Origin: Candidatus Meridianibacter frigidus | GTDB lineage: Bacteria; Vulcanimicrobiota; Vulcanimicrobiia; Vulcanimicrobiales; Vulcanimicrobiaceae | NCBI GenBank assembly: GCA_003243975.1 | Contig: QHBJ01000005.1 | Location: forward strand, 62,001 to 126,000 | Reading direction: 5' to 3' | Length of the DNA: 64,000 nt | Shown: positions 6,503 to 41,024 of the stretch, piece after piece | Position numbering within the stretch: position 1 is the stretch's first letter | Layout of the letters: each line of letters begins with the position of its first letter | Made by a program: the position numbers and the translations under genes | Notes under the pieces: model-generated | Databases searched by the model: none | Told to the model about the DNA's origin: nothing | What the model saw: the letters and a program-made list of their open reading frames with translations, nothing else

Positions 6503-7321
6503 ATGGCCGCCGCATGCGCGGTGGCGGTGCTCCTTTCCATCGTGCAGTTTGCTTCGAGCGCCATTTTTGCGCGCGTTGCAGCCCGAGGTGCGCTCCCTTC
6601 CCACTACGGCATCACGCAGGGCGAGCGTATCTATCGGTCCATCGAGCGCGTCGCCCCCTTTCCGTTTGTGGAGGACATGCTCGCTCGCGCCGCGTTGAAT
6701 CGTCACGATCCCGCCGAGGCTCAGGCGCATATCGAACGGATGCCGCCGACCGTGGTGCGCAACGAACTTCGAGCACAGTTGGAGGATATGCGCGGCAACC
6801 GTCCGGCGGCGTTGCGACACTACCTGGCAGCGGTAGATGTCGATTCGGTGCAATTCGAAATCGACCGGTTCGCAGATGCAGGGCAGATTGCGCGGGCCTA
6901 TGCGCTAGAGAGCGCGCTGCGCGAGCGGTTGAGCCAGGCCGGGACCCATCTCGATGCGCTGGCGGAAACGTACTGGCATTTGGGCGTGCTCGCCGCGCGT
7001 CAGTCTTCCGCGCAAGAACAGCCTTGGAAGCGCACGGCGCTGACGCATTATCAGCAGGCGCTCGCGCTCGCGCCATTTTCGGAGAAGTATTTGCTGGCGG
7101 CCGGCACGCAAGCTCTCGATCTGGGGGATTTTTCCGAAGCGCGTCTGTATTATGAGCGCGGCACCGAGGTCGATCCAGCAAGCGCAGACGCATACGCGGG
7201 CCTGGCGCTCGTTGCCTATCGTGCGGGGGATCGCAATGCCGCGGTGCGGCTGGCGCACATCAGCGCGCATTACGATCCACATTCGCGAATGCTCGCGCGC
7301 CTTTACGCTACGTGGCGCTAA
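6503..7321 (+). CDS. Membrane-anchored TPR-repeat protein
   Basis: 272 residues from ATG 6503; the frame is open upstream to 6482, but no better start with a ribosome site is visible. A hydrophobic segment at residues 3-25 (CAVAVLLSIVQFASSAIFA) is an uncleaved anchor or signal. The rest is helical with tetratricopeptide repeats, best seen in ALTHYQQALALAPFSEKYLLAAG, DFSEARLYYERGTEVDPASADAYAGLALVAYRAGD and the following helix pair. TPR proteins act as scaffolds, so no specific partner can be named. The end overlaps the next glycosyltransferase start by 10 bases, suggesting a shared transcript and a role in surface-glycan assembly. Confidence 0.65.
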   Translation: MAAACAVAVLLSIVQFASSAIFARVAARGALPSHYGITQGERIYRSIERVAPFPFVEDMLARAALNRHDPAEAQAHIERMPPTVVRNELRAQLEDMRGNRPAALRHYLAAVDVDSVQFEIDRFADAGQIARAYALESALRERLSQAGTHLDALAETYWHLGVLAARQSSAQEQPWKRTALTHYQQALALAPFSEKYLLAAGTQALDLGDFSEARLYYERGTEVDPASADAYAGLALVAYRAGDRNAAVRLAHISAHYDPHSRMLARLYATWR

Positions 7322-8349
7322 GAGTTGGCATCGATGCGCAGCTGACGGTCGGCACGCCGACGGGTATCGGCGAGTACGTGACCGGATTGATGCGGGCTTT
7401 GCGCGAGCGTGGGGCGGACATCGTGGAGTTTCGTGCGCGTGGCTATAATCCGTGGCGTTTCGATCGCCGGGTGGTGTGGGACCAGTTGCTCTTGCCGCTG
7501 CAGGCGGCTCGTCGCGCAATCGACGTGCTGCACTGTGCCTCTGGCACGATGCCACTCGTGCGCACGAAGCCCGTCATCGTAACCGTGCACGACGTCGCCT
7601 GGATGCGCACGCAGGGGCATGCGCGCGCCTACGCTCGTTACTACTTCGGTGCCTTTTCGATGAAGCGCTACACGAGCGCTCGCCACGTGGTTTTGGATAG
7701 TGAGTTTTCCCAGCGCGAACTGATGCGTTTCTTACCACTGGACCCGGCGCGAACGCATGTCGTCTATCCCGGCGTCGCCGCAGATTATTGCACGCTGCGA
7801 CGACGGCGCGCGACGATTCGAAACGTCGTGGTCATCGGGACGGTGGAGCGCCGGAAGAACCTCGCGGTCGTCATCGCGGCGCTTGCAAAACTCCCGCAAG
7901 AAGTTCGCTTGGTCGTCGCGGGACCGCGCACCCCCTATGAAGACGAATGCCGGGCGCTGGCATCGGCGTTGGGGGTGGATGCGCGCATCGATTGGATGGG
8001 ATACATTTTACGCCCCGAGCTCCTTAACTTGGTTGCCGGCGCGCATGTGATTGCGGTTCCGTCGCGCTACGAAGGCTTCGGATACGCGGCGGCCCAGGCA
8101 TTGTGCGCGGGGGTCCCCGTGGTGGTTTCCGCGGGGGGCTCATTGCAGGAGCTCGTAGCCGGCGACGGTGTCTGCGTCGACTCGGACGACGTTAGCGGGT
8201 GGGCCGGCGCGCTCGCGCAATTGTTGGACAACCCGGAGTATGCCGATGCACACGCGGAGGCGGTGCGAGCGGGCGCCATCGCCCGTTTCTCTTGGGCGGT
8301 TGCCGCCGGAAAGATGGCGCAAATCTACGCCGCTGCTAAGCGCTCCTAA
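7312..8349 (+). CDS. GT4-family glycosyltransferase
   Basis: 345 residues from GTG 7312. The N-terminal Rossmann half starts LRVGIDAQLTVGTPTGIGEYV and includes VIVTVHDVAWMR. The C-terminal half has the GT-B donor site: VVVIGTVERRKNLAVVIAAL, VAGPRTPYEDE, the WMGY loop, and the GT4 motif VPSRYEGFGYAAAQALCAGVPVV with E-x7-E arrangement. Family members use NDP-sugars to extend cell-surface glycans at the inner face of the membrane; the sugar cannot be inferred. It is convergent with the following minus-strand gene (4-base overlap). Confidence 0.85.
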   Translation: MALRVGIDAQLTVGTPTGIGEYVTGLMRALRERGADIVEFRARGYNPWRFDRRVVWDQLLLPLQAARRAIDVLHCASGTMPLVRTKPVIVTVHDVAWMRTQGHARAYARYYFGAFSMKRYTSARHVVLDSEFSQRELMRFLPLDPARTHVVYPGVAADYCTLRRRRATIRNVVVIGTVERRKNLAVVIAALAKLPQEVRLVVAGPRTPYEDECRALASALGVDARIDWMGYILRPELLNLVAGAHVIAVPSRYEGFGYAAAQALCAGVPVVVSAGGSLQELVAGDGVCVDSDDVSGWAGALAQLLDNPEYADAHAEAVRAGAIARFSWAVAAGKMAQIYAAAKRS

Positions 8350-24504: not shown

Positions 24505-26514
24505 CTAGGTGTGCAGTTCTTTTTGGGGGTCGTCCGCGTAGTCGAGATAGACCAGCCCCAAGAAGATCTCCAGCGCCTGCTCCGACATGCCGCGCACATT
24601 GGCAACTTCGGCAATGGTGCGGTGCGATGAAGCCGCTTCCGCGACGATCTCGGCCGGCGTGGAATTCGTGTCGGCAGCTACGATGGTAGCGGCCACGACG
24701 TCGCCCGGAGCGATGCCGTCGTGCAGCATCGCAGTGTAATCGATGCCCGAACTGTCGAAGCGAACCTGGAGAGCCCTTTGCAGCGTCGCATAGCGTTGCG
24801 CAGAGGTGCCCACTCCCAACATAGTGATGCGCGCGCCCAGCTGGCGTGAACGGGCCATGTTGTAGAGTTGAACCGCCTGTGAAGATGCGATGGCGGCTTT
24901 GCCGAGCGAATCGTTTGCCTTTCGCATCAGGGGAATCAGCAGATTGTAATCGCTCGCGTTAATATCGCCGAAATTATCCAGCTGCGAGTGCTGCAGTTGT
25001 TTGAGAAACTCGTCCAGGTCACCCAGGGCGACGTCCAGCATGGCTAGCGAGGCGCGCGCGGCGTCGTTGGCGCGTATGAGATCGGCGTTGCTGGCATTGA
25101 TATCGGAAAGCATGCGCGGATAGTTGGGTAGTATCGCGATGGAGTCGGCCGTCATCGGCGTTTGCTCCAGCGGCGCGCGCAGCTCATGCAGAATGTCCTG
25201 CGTGTCCTTCAGAACGCCGCCCTCTTTGTTCTTGTCAATCGAACCGGTGCTCGAGATGACTAGCTGCGTGTGGTCGAGCGCCGCGTCCACCGAGCGCGAC
25301 ATGACTTCCAGGTCTTTGTAGACCGCTTCCACGCGCGAGCCGGGACGGATCTGAATGTGGCTGAAATCCGGAATTTCATAGGAGATGTTCTGCAGCCGGT
25401 TCTGCATGGATTTTATTTGATCGCGACCCTCGTCGCGGCGGCTTGAGATCTCGGCGCCGGCTTGCGCTAGCGTACTCTGCGCGGCGTCGATTTGCGTGCG
25501 CAACGGAGCGAGATTCGGTTGCGTGAGATTCACGCGCTTGCGCTCGATGGCGCGTAACGCTGCAATTCCCGCGGCGGCAACGCCCCGCGTTTGCTCGTTT
25601 CCGTTTTGCGCGGCTGCGGCCAGCGTCTGTTCGCTTTTGTTTACCTGACCGAGCGCCAGCTGCGATTGACCCAAGTCGAGGAGCGCTTGGGCATTCGTCG
25701 GGTCCTTGGCCAGAATCTTCTGGAAGTTTAGCGCGGCTATGCTGTAGCGCGCCGTTTCATAGTCGTGCACTGCGGCGACGAGCTGCTGCTGCAGCGTAAC
25801 CTTCGTGGGATCCAGTTGCTCGTATCCGAGCAAATGGCCGATGCGTTTATCCGGCTCGGGATGAGATTCCAAATACTTGGTCAGCAGGTCCGGACGGTTT
25901 TTATCCAGCGTGCCCAGGTGCTGCATGAACGTGACCATCGCTTGCGGATCGTAGCCGGCGCGGGACATGAGCAACAGCCCATACTGGTCGGCTTGCAATT
26001 CGTCTACCCGCGCCATCTTAGCCAGTAGTCCCGCCTGCGCGATCTGGCCGAAGCGGTAGATAAAGGGCGAGAATAAAGAGGCAATGCCGAAGAGCAGGTT
26101 GAGAATCTGCGCCTTGGTATTGCTGGTCACCGCGTGGCGGCGCTCGATATGGCCCGTTTCGTGGCCGATCACACCCGCAAGCTCGTCGTCCGACTGCACG
26201 AAGTCCAGCAGGCCCTCTTCGAGGTACAGGTATCCGCCCAGCGTCGAAAATGCGTTGATCGTGGAATCATTGATGATCTTGATGTTGTATGGCACATCTT
26301 TGCGCGCGGTCTGCGCCCAAAGTTTTTCCGAAACCGTGTTCACCCACTTGTTTAGCAGCGGGTCGCCGTCGATCACGCTGGTCCGCACGATGTCGTCGTC
26401 GGCTTGTTTTCCAAGCTGAACTTCACCACTGGTGGAAAGGGCATACGCGGGTGCCGGGACGGTGGCACTGAACAGCGCTACAATCAGCGCGATGGGAACA
26501 AGGCGGCGAATCAT
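24505..26514 (-). CDS. M48-family zinc metalloprotease with TPR and coiled-coil regions
   Basis: 669 residues. Signal peptide (LVPIALIVALFSATVPAPAYA), then the M48 domain with the zinc site HETGH (118-122) and third ligand in RVDELQADQYG; NAFSTLGGYLYLEEGLLD is family-typical. A TPR segment follows (YSIAALNFQKILAKDPTNAQALLDLGQSQLALGQ) as in the periplasmic protease/chaperone BepA. Beyond ~330 residues it carries a long helical, coiled-coil-like extension (AAQSTLAQAGAEISSRRDEG...), not present in BepA. Probable role: outer-membrane protein quality control. Divergent from minC. Confidence 0.85.
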   Translation of the reverse strand: MIRRLVPIALIVALFSATVPAPAYALSTSGEVQLGKQADDDIVRTSVIDGDPLLNKWVNTVSEKLWAQTARKDVPYNIKIINDSTINAFSTLGGYLYLEEGLLDFVQSDDELAGVIGHETGHIERRHAVTSNTKAQILNLLFGIASLFSPFIYRFGQIAQAGLLAKMARVDELQADQYGLLLMSRAGYDPQAMVTFMQHLGTLDKNRPDLLTKYLESHPEPDKRIGHLLGYEQLDPTKVTLQQQLVAAVHDYETARYSIAALNFQKILAKDPTNAQALLDLGQSQLALGQVNKSEQTLAAAAQNGNEQTRGVAAAGIAALRAIERKRVNLTQPNLAPLRTQIDAAQSTLAQAGAEISSRRDEGRDQIKSMQNRLQNISYEIPDFSHIQIRPGSRVEAVYKDLEVMSRSVDAALDHTQLVISSTGSIDKNKEGGVLKDTQDILHELRAPLEQTPMTADSIAILPNYPRMLSDINASNADLIRANDAARASLAMLDVALGDLDEFLKQLQHSQLDNFGDINASDYNLLIPLMRKANDSLGKAAIASSQAVQLYNMARSRQLGARITMLGVGTSAQRYATLQRALQVRFDSSGIDYTAMLHDGIAPGDVVAATIVAADTNSTPAEIVAEAASSHRTIAEVANVRGMSEQALEIFLGLVYLDYADDPQKELHT

Positions 26515-26611: not shown

Positions 26612-26662
26612 CTTGTGAATTGGGTGTGGATAATTCCACGAACTTGTGAACCTGTTGTGGAT
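26612..26662. repeat. Two-copy composite repeat CTTGTGAA-N5-TGTGGAT (DnaA-box-like array)
   Basis: CTTGTGAA (26612-26619), five bases, TGTGGAT (26625-26631). The same arrangement recurs exactly 31 bases later: CTTGTGAA (26643-26650), five bases, TGTGGAT (26656-26662). The first TGTGGAT extends to TGTGGATAA, a perfect DnaA box (reverse of TTATCCACA); the second is TGTGGATGG. The TGTG cores start at 26614, 26625, 26645 and 26656 (spacings 11, 20, 11), so all lie on one DNA face. Located in the divergent M48 protease/minC promoter region. Confidence 0.6.
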
Positions 26663-26759
26663 GGTAAAGGGTGGCGTCTCGCGCCTGCGAACCCGCCACA
26701 ATTGCTTTTCCCAAGAGCTGCCGGATTGCCCTATAGAGGAAGGAAGCGGCCCCAATTTC

Positions 26760-27569
26760 ATGAGCGTCTTGCGCGGTAAGGGCCGCGGCCTGGAATTGTT
26801 CTTTGCTTACCGGCCGTTTGAAGAGGCCCTCTCCGAGTTGCGCCTTCAATTGGAGGAAAGCGCCGGCTTCTACCGCGGTTCGGTCGTCGATGCGGTCTTT
26901 GATGAAGAGCCCACCGAGGAGGACCTCTTGCGATTGCGCGAGCTGCTGGAGCCGGCGGGACTTCGCCTGGAGACCGTGCGAAGCGGGGTGCCGGGCGACG
27001 GCGAACTCGCTCGCCGGCGTGCCGCCAGGCCCAAACGCGAGATCCAGCTCTCGGACGCCGCTCGGTCGCTGGTAGCCGACTTTGCCGGCGCGCGCGCCGA
27101 TTTGGCGGCGCGGCGCGACCGCCCGCTGCCGCAGTTTACACCCGCTCCCAAGATCGCGCCGATGCCCGCGGCAGCCACGGTCGTTTCCATCGCGCCGTTT
27201 GAACGCGCAAGCGCCACCCTGTACCATGTCGGCACGGTGCGCGGCGGCCAATCTTTGCACCACGTCGGCAACATCGTGGTGGTGGGCGACGTGAACCCGG
27301 GCTCGGAGCTGGTCGCTAGCGGCGACATCTTGGTTTTCGGTTCGCTGCGCGGAGTTGCGCATGCGGGCGCCCAAGGCGACGCGGGGGCGCGCGTGTACGC
27401 ATTGGAACTGGCAGCAACGCAACTGCGCATAGCAACCTTTATTGCTGCCGAGGAGCAAACGCACAAACGAATCGGGGTCTGCCCGGAAGTCGCCTGCGTG
27501 CTGGAGGGTCGAATCACCATTGCCGCGCACGACCGCGCGGCTGAGTTGCCACGGGAGGATGCGCATTGA
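26760..27569 (+). CDS. minC: Septum site-determining protein MinC
   Basis: 269 residues from ATG 26760; an AGGAAGGAAG lies upstream, and the longer frame is non-coding. N-domain (LELFFAYRPFEEALSELRLQLEE, then GFYRGSVVDAVF) and a C-terminal beta-helix (TLYHVGTVRGGQSLHHVGNIVVVGDVNPGSELVASGDILVFGSLRG in 20-residue pieces) joined by an Ala/Pro linker. GSELVASGDI-VFGSLRG is the MinC_C hallmark that binds MinD and FtsZ. It starts the minC-minD-minD-minE-rodA operon. MinC inhibits FtsZ polymerisation away from mid-cell. Confidence 0.93.
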   Translation: MSVLRGKGRGLELFFAYRPFEEALSELRLQLEESAGFYRGSVVDAVFDEEPTEEDLLRLRELLEPAGLRLETVRSGVPGDGELARRRAARPKREIQLSDAARSLVADFAGARADLAARRDRPLPQFTPAPKIAPMPAAATVVSIAPFERASATLYHVGTVRGGQSLHHVGNIVVVGDVNPGSELVASGDILVFGSLRGVAHAGAQGDAGARVYALELAATQLRIATFIAAEEQTHKRIGVCPEVACVLEGRITIAAHDRAAELPREDAH

Positions 27570-28357
27570 GCGCTCGCAAGATCGTCTTGACCTCTGGAAA
27601 GGGCGGCGTCGGTAAGACGACGACGACCGTGAATCTCGGTGCTGCCTTGGCACGGCGCGGGCAACGGGTAATTCTGGTCGATGCCGACATCGGTTTGCGC
27701 AATCTCGATCTGGTCCTCGGTTTGGAGAAGCGCATCGTTTTCGATTTGGTCGAGGTGGTGGAAGGTCGCTGCCAGCTGCGCCAAGCGCTCATCAGGGACA
27801 AACGGTTCGAATCGCTCCACATGCTGCCGGCTGCCCAGACGCGCGACAAAGAAGCCGTGTCAGAAGAACAGATGGCAGCCGTCATGGAACAGCTGGCCGA
27901 ATTGGCAGATTACGTGCTGATCGATTGCCCTGCGGGCATCGAGCACGGTTTTCGCAACGCCGTAGCCGGAGCCGGTGAAGCGATTATTGTCACGACTCCC
28001 GAGGTCAGCGCAATTCGTGACGCGGATCGCGTGATCGGCAAGCTCAACGCCAAACAGCTTCCGACGCGGTTGATCATCAATCGCATTCGCCCGGAGATGG
28101 TGCGCAGCGGCGATATGCTTTCCATAGATGACGTCTGCGAAATTCTCTCCGCGGAGCTGCTCGGCATTATTCCGGACGACGAAGAGGTGATCGACACCAC
28201 AAATCGTGGCGAACCGATTGTGCTGGATCAGAACAATCGGCTGGCGGTCATGTACGACAAGATCGCTCGCCGGCTTGAAGGCGAGATCGTCCCTTTTAGC
28301 AACCTCGAATCGCGAGGATTCTTCGACCGGCTGCTGGCCGGCTTGAAAGCGGGCTAA
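27566..28357 (+). CDS. minD: Septum site-determining protein MinD (first copy)
   Basis: 263 residues from TTG 27566 overlapping the minC stop (TTGA). Deviant Walker A with signature lysine: SGKGGVGKTTTT (10-21). ILVDADIGLRNLDLVLGLE and DYVLIDCPAGIEHGFRNA are MinD-specific. The tail FSNLESRGFFDRLLAGLKAG is the amphipathic membrane-targeting helix. MinD recruits MinC to the membrane and is released by MinE. A second MinD follows eight bases later. Confidence 0.95.
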   Translation: MSARKIVLTSGKGGVGKTTTTVNLGAALARRGQRVILVDADIGLRNLDLVLGLEKRIVFDLVEVVEGRCQLRQALIRDKRFESLHMLPAAQTRDKEAVSEEQMAAVMEQLAELADYVLIDCPAGIEHGFRNAVAGAGEAIIVTTPEVSAIRDADRVIGKLNAKQLPTRLIINRIRPEMVRSGDMLSIDDVCEILSAELLGIIPDDEEVIDTTNRGEPIVLDQNNRLAVMYDKIARRLEGEIVPFSNLESRGFFDRLLAGLKAG

Positions 28358-28364
28358 CGTAAAG

Positions 28365-29216
28365 ATGCACGACGTGGAAATTCAAGACACACCCGCTGCC
28401 CTTCCAATTTCGACGAAACGCGGGACGGCGATCGTCATAACATCAGGCAAAGGCGGCGTGGGCAAGACAACAGCCACTGCGAATCTCGGAACCGCCCTAG
28501 CGCAGCGGGGAGCGCGAGTGGCGCTGGTGGATGCCGACGTCGGCCTGCGCAATCTGGATATCGTCCTGGGCTTGGAGAGCCGCGTGCGCCATCACCTCCT
28601 GGACGTGCTCGAAGAGAAAGTCAGCATTGAGGACGCGCTCGTACCAGACAAACACTCTCCAACCCTAAGTTTGTTGGCGGCCGCGCAAGCCCGCGAAAAA
28701 GAGGAAGTTGATACGGAGAAAATGCGCGAGCTGATCGAACAGTTGTGCGTGCGTTTTGACTACGTGCTCATCGACTGTCCTGCGGGCATCGAAAAGGGCT
28801 TCCGAAACGCCGTGGTTGGTGCGGACCAGGCGATCGTGATCTGCACGCCAGAGGTTTCGGCCGTGCGCGACGTTGACCGTGTGGTGGGGTTGCTCGGCAA
28901 TCGCTTTCGGCCGCAACTGATAATCAACCGCGTCCGGCCGCGTCTCGTGCAAAAGGGCAAGATGCTCTCGGTGGATGACGTGAACTCGATCTTGCGGCTA
29001 CCGCTGCTGGGCGTCATCGCCGACGAGCCCGATGTCGTCATCGCCTCGAACAAGGGCGAACCGCTTGCACTGCGTTCCGATTCAAAGACCGGCGCCGCTT
29101 TCCGCGCCATTGCCGCGCGCATGGCCGGCGAGGACGTCCCCGCACCGACGGCCGAGTTGGAGCAAAAAGGATTCATCGCAAAACTGGGATCGATATTTGG
29201 AGGACGCCGCTCATGA
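28365..29216 (+). CDS. MinD paralogue (second copy in the min operon)
   Basis: 283 residues. An N-terminal extension of ~20 residues precedes SGKGGVGKTTATANLG (27-42). ALVDADVGLRNLDIVLGLE and DYVLIDCPAGIEKGFRNAV match MinD, and the C-terminus LEQKGFIAKLGSIFGGRRS is again an amphipathic membrane helix. It is clearly homologous to the preceding MinD (long identical motif blocks) but differs over much of its length, so the duplication is not recent. Its last bases overlap the minE start (ATGA). Both copies keep all nucleotide-binding residues, so neither looks dead. Confidence 0.92.
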   Translation: MHDVEIQDTPAALPISTKRGTAIVITSGKGGVGKTTATANLGTALAQRGARVALVDADVGLRNLDIVLGLESRVRHHLLDVLEEKVSIEDALVPDKHSPTLSLLAAAQAREKEEVDTEKMRELIEQLCVRFDYVLIDCPAGIEKGFRNAVVGADQAIVICTPEVSAVRDVDRVVGLLGNRFRPQLIINRVRPRLVQKGKMLSVDDVNSILRLPLLGVIADEPDVVIASNKGEPLALRSDSKTGAAFRAIAARMAGEDVPAPTAELEQKGFIAKLGSIFGGRRS

Positions 29217-29575
29217 TCGAATTCTTCAACCGCATCTTCGGACGGCACAGCTCCAGTTCGACCGCCAAAGAGCGGCTGCGTTTGGTGCTGCTTTCGGATC
29301 ATATAGCGCTGGCGCCCGAACTGATCGAGGATCTCAAGCGCGAACTGGTAGACGTGATCTCACGCTTCGTCGAAGTTGACCGCAGCAAGATCGAAGTAAA
29401 CTTCGAACAGCAAGACAAAGCGGTTGCGATGCTGGCGAATATTCCAATTCTTTCCGTCCGCCCGACTCCGCCCCCGGTTCCCCCGCCAACAACTTCAAAC
29501 GGCCAAACGCCGCCCAAACCGCGCAAACGTCGCAAGCGCACCACCCCAACGAGTAATCCGGCCCCGGCAACGTAG
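29213..29575 (+). CDS. minE: Cell division topological specificity factor MinE, with basic C-terminal tail
   Basis: 120 residues; ordinary MinE is 85-90. Residues 1-12 (MIEFFNRIFGRH) are the membrane-binding helix, then AKERLRLVLLSDHIALAPELI (MinD-contact region) and ELVDVISRFVEVDRSKIEVNFEQQD, the dimeric anti-MinCD core. Residues after ~80 are an added Pro-rich segment ending in a basic stretch (PKPRKRRKRTT). MinE displaces MinC and triggers MinD ATPase. The tail is not part of the known family core. Confidence 0.88.
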   Translation: MIEFFNRIFGRHSSSSTAKERLRLVLLSDHIALAPELIEDLKRELVDVISRFVEVDRSKIEVNFEQQDKAVAMLANIPILSVRPTPPPVPPPTTSNGQTPPKPRKRRKRTTPTSNPAPAT

Positions 29576-29586
29576 AAGAGGGCGGC

Positions 29587-30693
29587 ATGCGCCGCTGGAT
29601 CACATCTTTTTATTGGCCGCTGGCCGTGGGCAGCGTACTCCTCTCGTTTTTGGGTATCGTCATCATTCAGTCGGCCGGGCTGCATACGTCCGCGGCGCTC
29701 TTCGAATATAAAAGGCAAGAACTCTACACGGTGCTGGGCATCGCTCTGATGCTCGGATTTTCGTATTTCGATTACCGAATCTGGCAGCGATGGGCGCCGG
29801 GCATTTACGCTCTGAACTTGGTCTTGCTGCTCGTCATTTTGGTGGCCGGGCACCGCGCCCTGGGAGCGCAGCGCTGGATATCTTTGGGACCCCTTGGAAC
29901 GTTCCAGCCATCGGAACCGGCCAAGCTCTTCTTGGCAATTTCCATCGCGGCCATTCTATGCCGGGGCCAATACCGCCGGCTGCGCGATCTATGGCTACCG
30001 CTGGTTGCAGCCGGGATTCCCATGCTCTTGATTTTGCGTCAGCCGGATTTGGGAACAATGTTGGTGATCCTGGCGATCTTGAGCGTGCAGTTATTCTTCG
30101 GGTTGCCCGACGTTCGCCATTTTGCGCTCTTCCTCGGAAGCGTGATCGCGGCGGCGGTGTTTACCGTCGGCACGAACTTCATCCTCAAACCATTCCAAAA
30201 GGCGCGGTTGCTCGTGTTTCTCAATCCGAAGCTCGATCCGCAGGGCGCCGGCTACAGTCTTCATCAAGCCAAAATCGCGGTTGGCAACGGCGGATGGTTC
30301 GGGCGCGGACTGCACCAGGGCACGCAAACGCAGCTCAATTTCGTTCCCGAACACTCGACGGACTTCATTTTCACGGTATTGGGAGAAGAGCTTGGTTTTG
30401 CCGGCGCGTTGCTCTTGCTGGGTCTATACGCCCTCATTTTTCTCGGCGGAATACGCGCCATGCTTTTTGCGCGCGACCGCTTTGGATTCTTGCTGGCCGC
30501 CGGGCTGGTAACCATGTTCGTTTTCCACATCATGGTAAATGTTGGCATGACCGTGGGCATCATGCCGATCACCGGCATCCCGCTCCCGCTGGTTTCGTTC
30601 GGCGGTTCATCGGTGTTGACCAACTACGCCGCCATCGGAATTCTGCTGAACATCTATGCGCAGAAAGACCGCACCGTTTTGGGAAACGCCTAA
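29587..30693 (+). CDS. rodA: Rod shape-determining glycosyltransferase RodA (SEDS family)
   Basis: 368 residues with about ten membrane helices. The SEDS signature is present: FVPEHSTDFIFTVLGEELGF in the second half, and the C-terminal NVGMTVGIMPITGIPLPLVSFGGSS. RQPDLGTMLVIL and GAQRWISLGPLGTFQPSEPAKL are also typical; DYRIWQRWAPGIYALNLVLL favours RodA over FtsW. SEDS proteins polymerise peptidoglycan glycan strands with a partner class B PBP, which is not in this window. Last gene of the min operon. Confidence 0.9.
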   Translation: MRRWITSFYWPLAVGSVLLSFLGIVIIQSAGLHTSAALFEYKRQELYTVLGIALMLGFSYFDYRIWQRWAPGIYALNLVLLLVILVAGHRALGAQRWISLGPLGTFQPSEPAKLFLAISIAAILCRGQYRRLRDLWLPLVAAGIPMLLILRQPDLGTMLVILAILSVQLFFGLPDVRHFALFLGSVIAAAVFTVGTNFILKPFQKARLLVFLNPKLDPQGAGYSLHQAKIAVGNGGWFGRGLHQGTQTQLNFVPEHSTDFIFTVLGEELGFAGALLLLGLYALIFLGGIRAMLFARDRFGFLLAAGLVTMFVFHIMVNVGMTVGIMPITGIPLPLVSFGGSSVLTNYAAIGILLNIYAQKDRTVLGNA

Positions 30694-39176: not shown

Positions 39177-39828
39177 CGGTGACGATGCGGCCATCTTCCA
39201 GCCGCACGACTCTCCTGCGCATGCGATCGACCACGGCTTGGTTGTGCGTTGCCACCACGACGGTGGTGCCTTTCAAGTTGATCCGCAGAAGCAATTCCAT
39301 GATCTCGGTACTGTTGGAGGGATCCAGGTTACCGGTCGGCTCGTCGCACAAAAGAATCTTCGGGTTGTTTACCAAGGCGCGCGCGATTGCGGTCCGTTGC
39401 TGCTCGCCGCCGGAAAGCTCGCCCGGATACATGCGGCTCTTATGCGAGAGCCCCACCAGATCCAGCGCGCGCGGCACTTGGCGCCGCACGTCTCGGGTCC
39501 TGGCACCGGTAACCTGCATCGCAAAGGCCACGTTTTCCCAAACCGTCTTGTCGATAAGTAGTTTGTAATCTTGGAACACCACGCCCAGATGACGGCGCAA
39601 CGCAGGAACGCGGCTGCGCCGTAACCGGTCGACGCGAATTCCGTCCACCATTATCTCGCCACCGGTGGGCCGCATCTCGCGGTACAGCACGCGAAGAAGG
39701 CTCGACTTGCCGGTTCCGGAGTGGCCGACTAAAAAGACGAAGGCGCCTTTTTCGATCTCGAGGTCCACGTTGTCAAGAGCGCGCACCCCGTTTGGATAAA
39801 CGAGTGACACGCGGCGAAGAGAGATCAT
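39118..39828 (-). CDS. ftsE: Cell division ATP-binding protein FtsE
   Basis: 236 residues from ATG 39828; the upstream frame is not coding. It begins MISLRRVSLVYPNGVRALDN, which is typical of FtsE. Walker A GHSGTGKS (35-42), the Q-loop in GVVFQDYKLL, signature LSGGEQQR and Walker B ILLCDEPTGNLDP are present. FtsE drives FtsX and couples peptidoglycan hydrolysis to the divisome. Its end overlaps ftsX. Divergent from an acyl-CoA dehydrogenase gene across a 47-base gap. Confidence 0.94.
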   Translation of the reverse strand: MISLRRVSLVYPNGVRALDNVDLEIEKGAFVFLVGHSGTGKSSLLRVLYREMRPTGGEIMVDGIRVDRLRRSRVPALRRHLGVVFQDYKLLIDKTVWENVAFAMQVTGARTRDVRRQVPRALDLVGLSHKSRMYPGELSGGEQQRTAIARALVNNPKILLCDEPTGNLDPSNSTEIMELLLRINLKGTTVVVATHNQAVVDRMRRRVVRLEDGRIVTDEERGYYFLGLGQSKVLSG

Positions 39829-39875: not shown

Positions 39876-41024
39876 ATGAATTTCGATTTGTCCGACGAGC
39901 AGAAGGCAATCCAGAGTCTTGTCAGAGAGTTCGCGCAAGCCGAGGTCGTTCCGCGCGCTGAAGAGATGGATCGGCAGGAAGCATTTCCGTACGATCTCGT
40001 GAAGCAGATGGCCGAACTCGGGCTGATGGGCTTGCCGTTTCCGGAAGAGTACGGGGGCGCGGGTGCGGACACCGTAAGCTACGCGCTCGCGGTCATGGAG
40101 CTGGGCCGTGCCGACGCGTCCACGGGAATCACGATGGCGGCTCACGTTTCGCTGGGCGCCACGCCGTTCTACCTTTATGGTACGAAGGCGCAGAAGGAAA
40201 AATACTTAATTCCGCTGGCGCAGGGCAGCATGCTTTGGGGTTTCGGACTAACCGAACCCGGCGCCGGGAGCGACGCCGCGAACGTGCAAACCAAAGCGCA
40301 GCTGCGCGAGGGCAAGTGGATCATCAACGGCACCAAAGCTTTCATCACGAACAGCGGCACGGACATTAGCGGTGGCAGCACGATTACCGCGGTGACGGGC
40401 GCTCGGCCGGAGGGCAAACCTGAGATTACCAATCTGATCGTGCCGCAAGATACCCACGGTTTCTCGCGCAGCCGCAAGTATAAGAAGATGGGCTGGCGCG
40501 CCTCAGATACCCGTGAGTTGTCATTCGTGGATGCCGAAGTGCCCGAGGAGAATGTGCTCGGAGCCCGCGGCAAGGGACTCCAGAACTTTTTAACCGTCCT
40601 GGATGGCGGCCGAATCTCGGTGGCGGCGCTGTCGGTCGGCCTTTCGATGGGCGCGTACGATGAATCGCTCAAGTATGCCAAAGAGCGTCAGGCCTTTGGG
40701 AAGTCCATTTCGAAGTTTCAGGCGATCCAATTCAAGCTCGTCGACATGCTCAGCGAGATCGAGCATGCCAAGAATATGGTGCTCAAGGCCGCGTGGGAGA
40801 AAGACCAAGGTCGCGACTTTGCGATGACCGCAAGTTTCGCGAAATTGTACTCGGCCGAAGTTTCGCGCCGCGTCGTCAACGAAGCCGTTCAGATTCACGG
40901 CGGCTACGGTTTTATGGACGAATACCCGGTCTCGCGGATGTACCGGGATCAAAAGATCAACGAAATCGGCGAAGGCACCAACGAAGTGCAACGCATGATC
41001 ATCGCCAAAATGCTCGGCCTATAA
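39876..41024 (+). CDS. Acyl-CoA dehydrogenase
   Basis: 382 residues, the standard length. The three-domain family pattern is clear: MNFDLSDEQKAIQSLVREFA, then GLMGLPFPEEYGGAGAD, the FAD-contact GFGLTEPGAGSDAAN and KWIINGTKAFITNSGTD. In the C-terminal domain are DGGRISVAALSVG, AFGKSISKFQAIQFKLVDM, QIHGGYGFMDEYPVSRMYRD and the ending NEIGEGTNEVQRMIIAK. The Glu in NEIGEGTNE is in the position of the catalytic base of short/medium-chain enzymes. It dehydrogenates acyl-CoA with electron-transfer flavoprotein as acceptor. The chain-length preference is unknown. Confidence 0.93.
   Translation: MNFDLSDEQKAIQSLVREFAQAEVVPRAEEMDRQEAFPYDLVKQMAELGLMGLPFPEEYGGAGADTVSYALAVMELGRADASTGITMAAHVSLGATPFYLYGTKAQKEKYLIPLAQGSMLWGFGLTEPGAGSDAANVQTKAQLREGKWIINGTKAFITNSGTDISGGSTITAVTGARPEGKPEITNLIVPQDTHGFSRSRKYKKMGWRASDTRELSFVDAEVPEENVLGARGKGLQNFLTVLDGGRISVAALSVGLSMGAYDESLKYAKERQAFGKSISKFQAIQFKLVDMLSEIEHAKNMVLKAAWEKDQGRDFAMTASFAKLYSAEVSRRVVNEAVQIHGGYGFMDEYPVSRMYRDQKINEIGEGTNEVQRMIIAKMLGL

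Follow-up and report, generated by a model that had tools for sequence, protein, structure and literature searches.

In Caulobacter crescentus, DnaA acts on ftsZ, mipZ and gcrA, and in Bacillus subtilis it binds the promoter of the division gene ftsL; DnaA boxes upstream of ftsZ in Escherichia coli exert no action on ftsZ transcription (PMC8203912). Clusters of DnaA boxes that reside outside oriC tune replication initiation in B. subtilis (PMC5295017), where DnaA both activates and represses (PMC4447404).

The locus described here carries a row of four boxes, predicted to be DnaA sites, ahead of a Min operon. It resembles the C. crescentus system in that DnaA would putatively act on the supply of a division-site regulator, the role of MipZ being comparable to that of Min, but it involves other genes in another phylum and employs a conserved multi-box array with fixed spacing. 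The parallel with ftsL is that DnaA is predicted to occupy a division-gene promoter, although the gene differs. As in the B. subtilis clusters, several DnaA boxes are found in intergenic regions and promoters (PMC5295017, PMC4447404). However, the best-known role of those clusters is in initiation timing and the control of sda, ywlC and other genes, with no Min operon among them, whereas the position of the minC array relative to the promoter core is rigid. A cluster of DnaA boxes at a promoter is a known arrangement; the presumed Min target and an associated RNA gene are new. Our literature search, whose coverage was incomplete, returned no title or abstract reporting DnaA control of a Min operon.

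The array sits in a 245-bp gap between a divergent M48 peptidase gene and minC, within the window (the whole 64-kb stretch of DNA that was analysed). The neighbouring genes are as follows.

24505 to 26514, minus strand: M48 peptidase with TPRs (Pfam Peptidase_M48, E=5.7e-31), the alternative target, whose start codon is 100 bp from box 1 of the array
26760 to 27569, plus strand: minC (Pfam MinC_C, E=1.3e-27)
27566 to 28357, plus strand: first MinD-like ATPase (MinD/ParA-type Pfam families)
28365 to 29216, plus strand: second MinD-like ATPase
29213 to 29575, plus strand: minE (Pfam MinE, E=4.7e-20)
29587 to 30693, plus strand: FtsW/RodA/SpoVE-family gene (Pfam FTSW_RODA_SPOVE, E=5.5e-92), the last gene of the presumed operon

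The window belongs to a 1.95-Mb draft genome that is 96% complete, and its closest MinC relatives among named records are from Candidatus Eremiobacterota / WPS-2. The two MinD-like genes form a tandem pair (27566-29216) between minC and minE.

The composite CTTGTGAA-N5-TGTGGAT occurs twice in the array, as CTTGTGAATTGGGTGTGGAT at 26612-26631 and as CTTGTGAACCTGTTGTGGAT at 26643-26662, with a period of 31. Together the two copies supply four TGTG[A/G]A boxes on the same strand, whose TGTG cores at 26614, 26625, 26645 and 26656 are spaced 11/20/11. The nine letters at 26625-26633 read TGTGGATAA, the reverse complement of TTATCCACA, and constitute the sole perfect DnaA box within the window. The initial annotation of this DNA had reported the two-copy composite with its period, the spacing of the cores along one helix face and the perfect DnaA box, and all three were borne out. 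The boxes are listed below, with their information content across the 39 genomes of the same family and order that carry the array.

26614 to 26622, plus strand: box 1, TGTGAATTG, a weak DnaA-box-like site with the consensus TGTGNAT in relatives (0.96 bits per position over the first six columns)
26625 to 26633, plus strand: box 2, which is the perfect DnaA box and probably anchors the array (1.65 bits per position)
26645 to 26653, plus strand: box 3, TGTGAACCT, consensus TTGtGa (1.21 bits per position)
26656 to 26664, plus strand: box 4, TGTGGATGG, TGTG[G/A]A in 39 of 39 genomes and TGTGGA in 37 (1.99 bits per position)

This arrangement is nearly unique in the genome. The four-box pattern has a single match in the 64 kb when three or fewer mismatches are allowed, and exact copies of the composite across the whole genome (1,949,983 bases in 43 contigs) are limited to the two at minC. 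Allowing two mismatches adds three further genome matches (none in a reversed control), two of which are meaningful: one at C1:7545 belongs to the array of the RNA gene discussed below, and another at C20:11812 lies directly before dnaB. The small size of the motif is all that favours chance or a sequence artefact as its source, and this explanation is virtually out of the question because the array is conserved. None of 100 dinucleotide-preserving shuffles reproduced the pattern, and the boxes retain about 1-2 bits per position against just 0.10-0.14 in their flanks, across genera in which MinC shares 47-70% identity with the protein of the window.

An array is present before minC, in oriented upstream DNA, in 39 of the 41 genomes from the same family and the same order; the two without it at minC are G021 and G028. 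Of the 60 related genomes, 57 have an identified minC gene. The separation between boxes 2 and 4 is 31 bp in 31 of the 39 genomes, 30 bp in four and 32 bp in four. A profile built from 35 relatives, with the genome of the window left out, matches the array of the window at E=2.2e-12 with no other strong match there, and the minC promoter is the top match in 39 genomes. The profile was also matched by 62 of the 63 minC loci from Eremiobacterota in a second collection (about 44 of these loci had not been used to build it), as opposed to none of 13 outgroup loci. The profile yields no strong match at mraZ, dnaA or ftsA loci. Thus, the comparison with relatives and the genome-wide scan that the initial annotation had suggested revealed neither loss of the array in close relatives nor many copies unlinked to promoters, and its remark that the array looks designed can be restated in terms of selection, given that position, spacing and sequence are conserved at the minC promoter across the lineage. 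The array is almost certainly a genuine regulatory element.

The sister family (13 genomes) presents a variation on this architecture. No forward-sense match to the profile occurs at minC in these genomes, and the boxes there are carried by the opposite strand. They read TTGTGGA, TGTGAA, TGTGAA and TGTGGA with a spacing of 12/11/11 in most representatives, and the remainder have one or two degenerate boxes. The number of boxes and their phasing are therefore kept, whereas their direction is flipped. Two genomes of this family also have a further conserved three-box array, TGTGGATAA ... TTGTGGA ... TGTGGATA, near the end of a convergent gene.

Between the array and minC lies a bipartite element, AGGG-N18-AA, whose two halves are located in the window as follows.

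26668 to 26671, plus strand: AGGG, which begins 12 bp past the start of box 4 and is proposed as the -35-like part of the core promoter of minC
26690 to 26691, plus strand: AA, 22 bp past the start of AGGG (+22/+23), the proposed -10-like half

AGGG starts 11-13 bp past the start of box 4 in each of the 39 genomes, with its GG invariant and its A retained in 36, and an additional A is found at +24 from the start of AGGG in 27 of them. The sister family has AGG[G/A] directly adjoining the nearest box, and the two A residues at +22 and +23 are present in 11 and 13 of the 13 genomes, respectively. The element thus keeps its direction towards minC although the array flips, and for this reason we infer that AGGG-N18-AA, which is not a standard sigma-70 promoter, serves as the minC core promoter. 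The helical phasing extends from the array to this putative core, a feature that the initial annotation had not noted, any more than the inversion in the sister family or the RNA gene described below. The end of box 4 is 98 bp from the minC start codon in the window, and just 40-45 bp in 22 of the 39 genomes, a distance that would make the transcripts nearly leaderless. The initial annotation had proposed control either of the Min/RodA operon or of the divergent protease. The array keeps a fixed distance to an AGGG-N18-AA element directed towards minC, which makes the former the likelier target. In the few ftsA promoters that were read by eye, AGGG-N18-AATATA recurs.

Two other readings of this region were rejected. 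A sigma-70 promoter inside the array, with GATAAT as the -10 and TTGTGA as the -35 element, has misfitting spacings; moreover, the base after GATAA is not conserved, and a promoter scan finds no such promoter. An N-terminal coding extension of minC from the GTG at 26646 was likewise discarded, given that the distance between the array and the start codon varies without keeping frame.

Weaker matches to the profile (E 1e-8 to 1e-3) include arrays composed of boxes 2, 3 and 4 at 20 and 11 bp, most of which precede a seemingly non-protein gene. This gene carries a sigma-70-like promoter (TTG..., N17-18, TACGAT/TACCAT/TAGCAT), followed by a structured stretch of about 230 nt and then a terminator hairpin. 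Compensatory changes affect 14 of the 25 predicted base pairs in its 3' part among ten sequences. A comparison with Rfam produced no match at gathering scores; when E values up to 5 were admitted, just a chance-level CRISPR repeat model appeared (E=0.63, below the cut-off). The RNA gene is undescribed and represents a new companion of the array. One or two copies are present per genome, and in one relative (G001) two tandem copies each have their own array. The genome of the window holds one copy, detected at C1:7296-7404 (E=7e-16; the gene spans about 7296-7500 on the minus strand), and the array before it reads GGTGAGTAA - TTGTGGA - TGTGGG with spacings as in relatives. In 18 of 18 RNA-gene promoters, boxes 3 and 4 are 11 bp apart and the TTG of the -35 element starts 22 bp past box 4 (23 in one). 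Array and -35 element are thus 22 bp apart at the RNA gene, against 12 bp between array and AGGG at minC, a difference of 10 bp, or one helical turn.

This displacement by a single turn gives the array an activator-like geometry. Activation is our preferred reading, because the array lies upstream both of the presumed minC core and of recognisable RNA-gene promoters, although repression is possible. We regard it as unlikely, but worth weighing, that the array at minC is a repressor site or a roadblock, regardless of which protein binds. If AGGG-N18-AA were not the core, the short distance to the start codon would leave little room for a promoter, which the array would then overlap, and DnaA is known to repress several genes (PMC4447404). 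However, the conserved bipartite element is found downstream of the array in both array orientations, and at RNA-gene promoters the array is again upstream. That the array must repress minC was an initial guess, and it was weakened by the AGGG-N18-AA element downstream.

The genomic position of the array, whose distance from oriC the initial annotation had asked about, proved to be near the origin. On the contig that carries the array (at contig position 88,612), the C-terminal domain of DnaA is encoded at 40,556-40,759 and a perfect DnaA box lies upstream at 39,319, placing the array 49 kb from dnaA. In the 22 relatives with both genes on one contig, dnaA and minC are separated by 40-66 kb on the same strand, with minC downstream. 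The array is not itself oriC, a candidate that was rejected since dnaA and its boxes are 49 kb away and the array does not adjoin dnaA/dnaN. This constant proximity, together with the delay of initiation that DnaA-box clusters away from oriC cause in B. subtilis (PMC5295017), could indicate that the array is a DnaA-titration or control site whose main effect is on initiation and whose place before minC is incidental. It would then be comparable to those clusters or to the datA/DARS sites of E. coli, which are characterised by an IHF-dependent conversion of the nucleotide state of DnaA. We consider such a role quite improbable. Conserved gene order by itself would also yield the observed distances, and the fixed 11-13 bp to AGGG, the 40-45 bp that separate array and start codon in 22 of the 39 genomes and the fixed distance to the -35 element at RNA genes all point to transcription.

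Several observations bear on whether DnaA is the protein that reads the array. Box 2 is a 9-mer fitting TTATNCACA, and across genomes it takes the form TGTGNATAA with all four bases occurring at N; position 5 is G in 28 genomes, A in seven, C in three and T in one, and position 7 can be T, C or A, with a single G. The same 9-mer as in the window, or a close variant, is found upstream of dnaA in 36 genomes, where the dnaA-proximal box reads TGTG[G/T/C]A[T/C/A]AA apart from a single exception at the final position, and its degenerate positions are those of box 2 in the array. In this respect, box 2 behaves like a DnaA box. DnaA of the window's genome has an intact, conserved DNA-binding domain (PF08299, E=3.9e-24) with the motif KKDHTTV. 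The further boxes stand in helical register, at 11/20/11 in all 39 genomes of the family and order and at 12/11/11 in the majority of sister-family genomes, and that this phasing is retained despite inversion counts in favour of a DnaA-bound element. Certain features count against it: boxes 1, 3 and 4 keep only TGTGNA, with box 3 often being TTGCGA, a poor DnaA box; box 2 is TGTGAGTAA, one change from the DnaA consensus, in five genomes; and the boxes of the lineage's oriC are 12 bp apart, with the 20-bp gap of the array absent there. Boxes 1, 3 and 4 might be weaker DnaA sites. On balance, it is likely that DnaA reads the array. One relative (G036, contigs C11 and C19) apparently has two dnaA genes, the second of which showed no upstream DnaA boxes in the same scan.

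The main rival for this role is a response regulator of the OmpR/PhoB family, to which CtrA and MtrA belong. The CtrA site is TTAA-N7-TTAA, and OmpR/PhoB-type sites in general are direct repeats at 11 bp. Such a protein would bind TGTGNA-N5-TGTGGA as a dimer, with two dimers 31 bp apart upstream of the -35 element. Like CtrA/MtrA-type sites, the array has 11-bp direct repeats upstream of cell-cycle genes (boxes 1-2 and 3-4 are same-strand repeats of this kind), and the activator-like positions 12 or 22 bp ahead of the -35 element would suit these regulators. Yet its repeated word is TGTGNA, and box 2, in contrast to its partners, extends to a full DnaA 9-mer and varies as the oriC box does; moreover, about half of the RNA-gene promoters have box 2 without box 1, which would leave a lone half-site. 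We therefore judge a response regulator to be an unlikely binder, though a credible one.

Helically repeated GTG words before division genes also bring to mind the boxes of MraZ, the division-cluster regulator, and the direct repeats with GTG cores ahead of a division operon and the presence of an mraZ gene in the window's genome would suit such a binder. However, mraZ is itself preceded in this lineage by repeats of AGTGGTG with a period of exactly 10 bp (AGTGGTGCAAAGTGGTGTACAGTGGTG in the genome of the window), which presumably are the lineage's MraZ boxes. The array, built from TGTGNA at 11/20/11, has neither this word nor this period, and its profile does not match mraZ loci. MraZ was rejected on the basis of these repeats, and its involvement is very improbable.

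Similar rows of boxes are found at other genes of the same genome. Two TGTGNA boxes lie 9-13 bp apart at ten places, versus five in a reversed control, and these places include the two in the minC array, the dnaA region and rows at ftsA and dnaB. The ftsA row (C11:22690-22720) consists of an inverted TCCACA-N5-TCCACA followed by TTATCCTCAAGGA, about 150-180 bp before ftsA (153-176 bp in the window's genome), and is patchy in relatives. The dnaB row (C20:11802-11830) has three TGTGGA boxes at 12 and 11 bp within an upstream open frame; two or three boxes occur at similar places in several relatives, again patchily, and the row may reflect coding constraint. Both rows constitute weaker evidence. 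Three boxes, including the perfect DnaA box TGTGGAATCTGTGTGAACTGTGGATAA, are also located at C2:16717-16743, ahead of a gene that by eye resembles an ABC-transporter permease.

The reading that we consider reasonably probable is that the array is a DnaA-bound control element, which probably activates the minC-minD-minD-minE-rodA operon. DnaA would bind cooperatively, with box 2 as the strong anchor and boxes 1, 3 and 4 as weaker sites that are occupied at high levels of active DnaA. Lying upstream of AGGG-N18-AA and helically in phase with it, the bound row would most likely aid RNA polymerase in starting transcription at minC. In this manner, the supply of Min and RodA would be tied to the replication-initiation cycle, and the minC locus, at about 50 kb from oriC, would be copied soon after initiation. 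The conservation, spacing and near-uniqueness of the array, the sharing of its box word with oriC, its register with downstream elements and its recurrence before an RNA gene are observed; that DnaA binds it, that the effect is activation and that it follows the cell cycle are what we infer. A more ambitious proposal, offered tentatively and with somewhat less confidence than doubt, is a regulon spanning the class within Eremiobacterota, wherein DnaA on a rigid multi-box array, one or two turns before the core, directly drives both the Min/RodA operon and the undescribed structured RNA, such that initiation times division-site selection via transcription.

How replication initiation is coupled to the division site in bacteria is a long-standing question. 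The element described here is short, exactly defined and conserved in a hardly studied, uncultured lineage, so that a single protein and a single DNA fragment suffice for an in vitro test of its proposed function; the array before the undescribed RNA gene offers a second, independent read-out. The presence of a conserved array both at the Min operon and before this RNA gene suggests a direct link between replication and division in these organisms.
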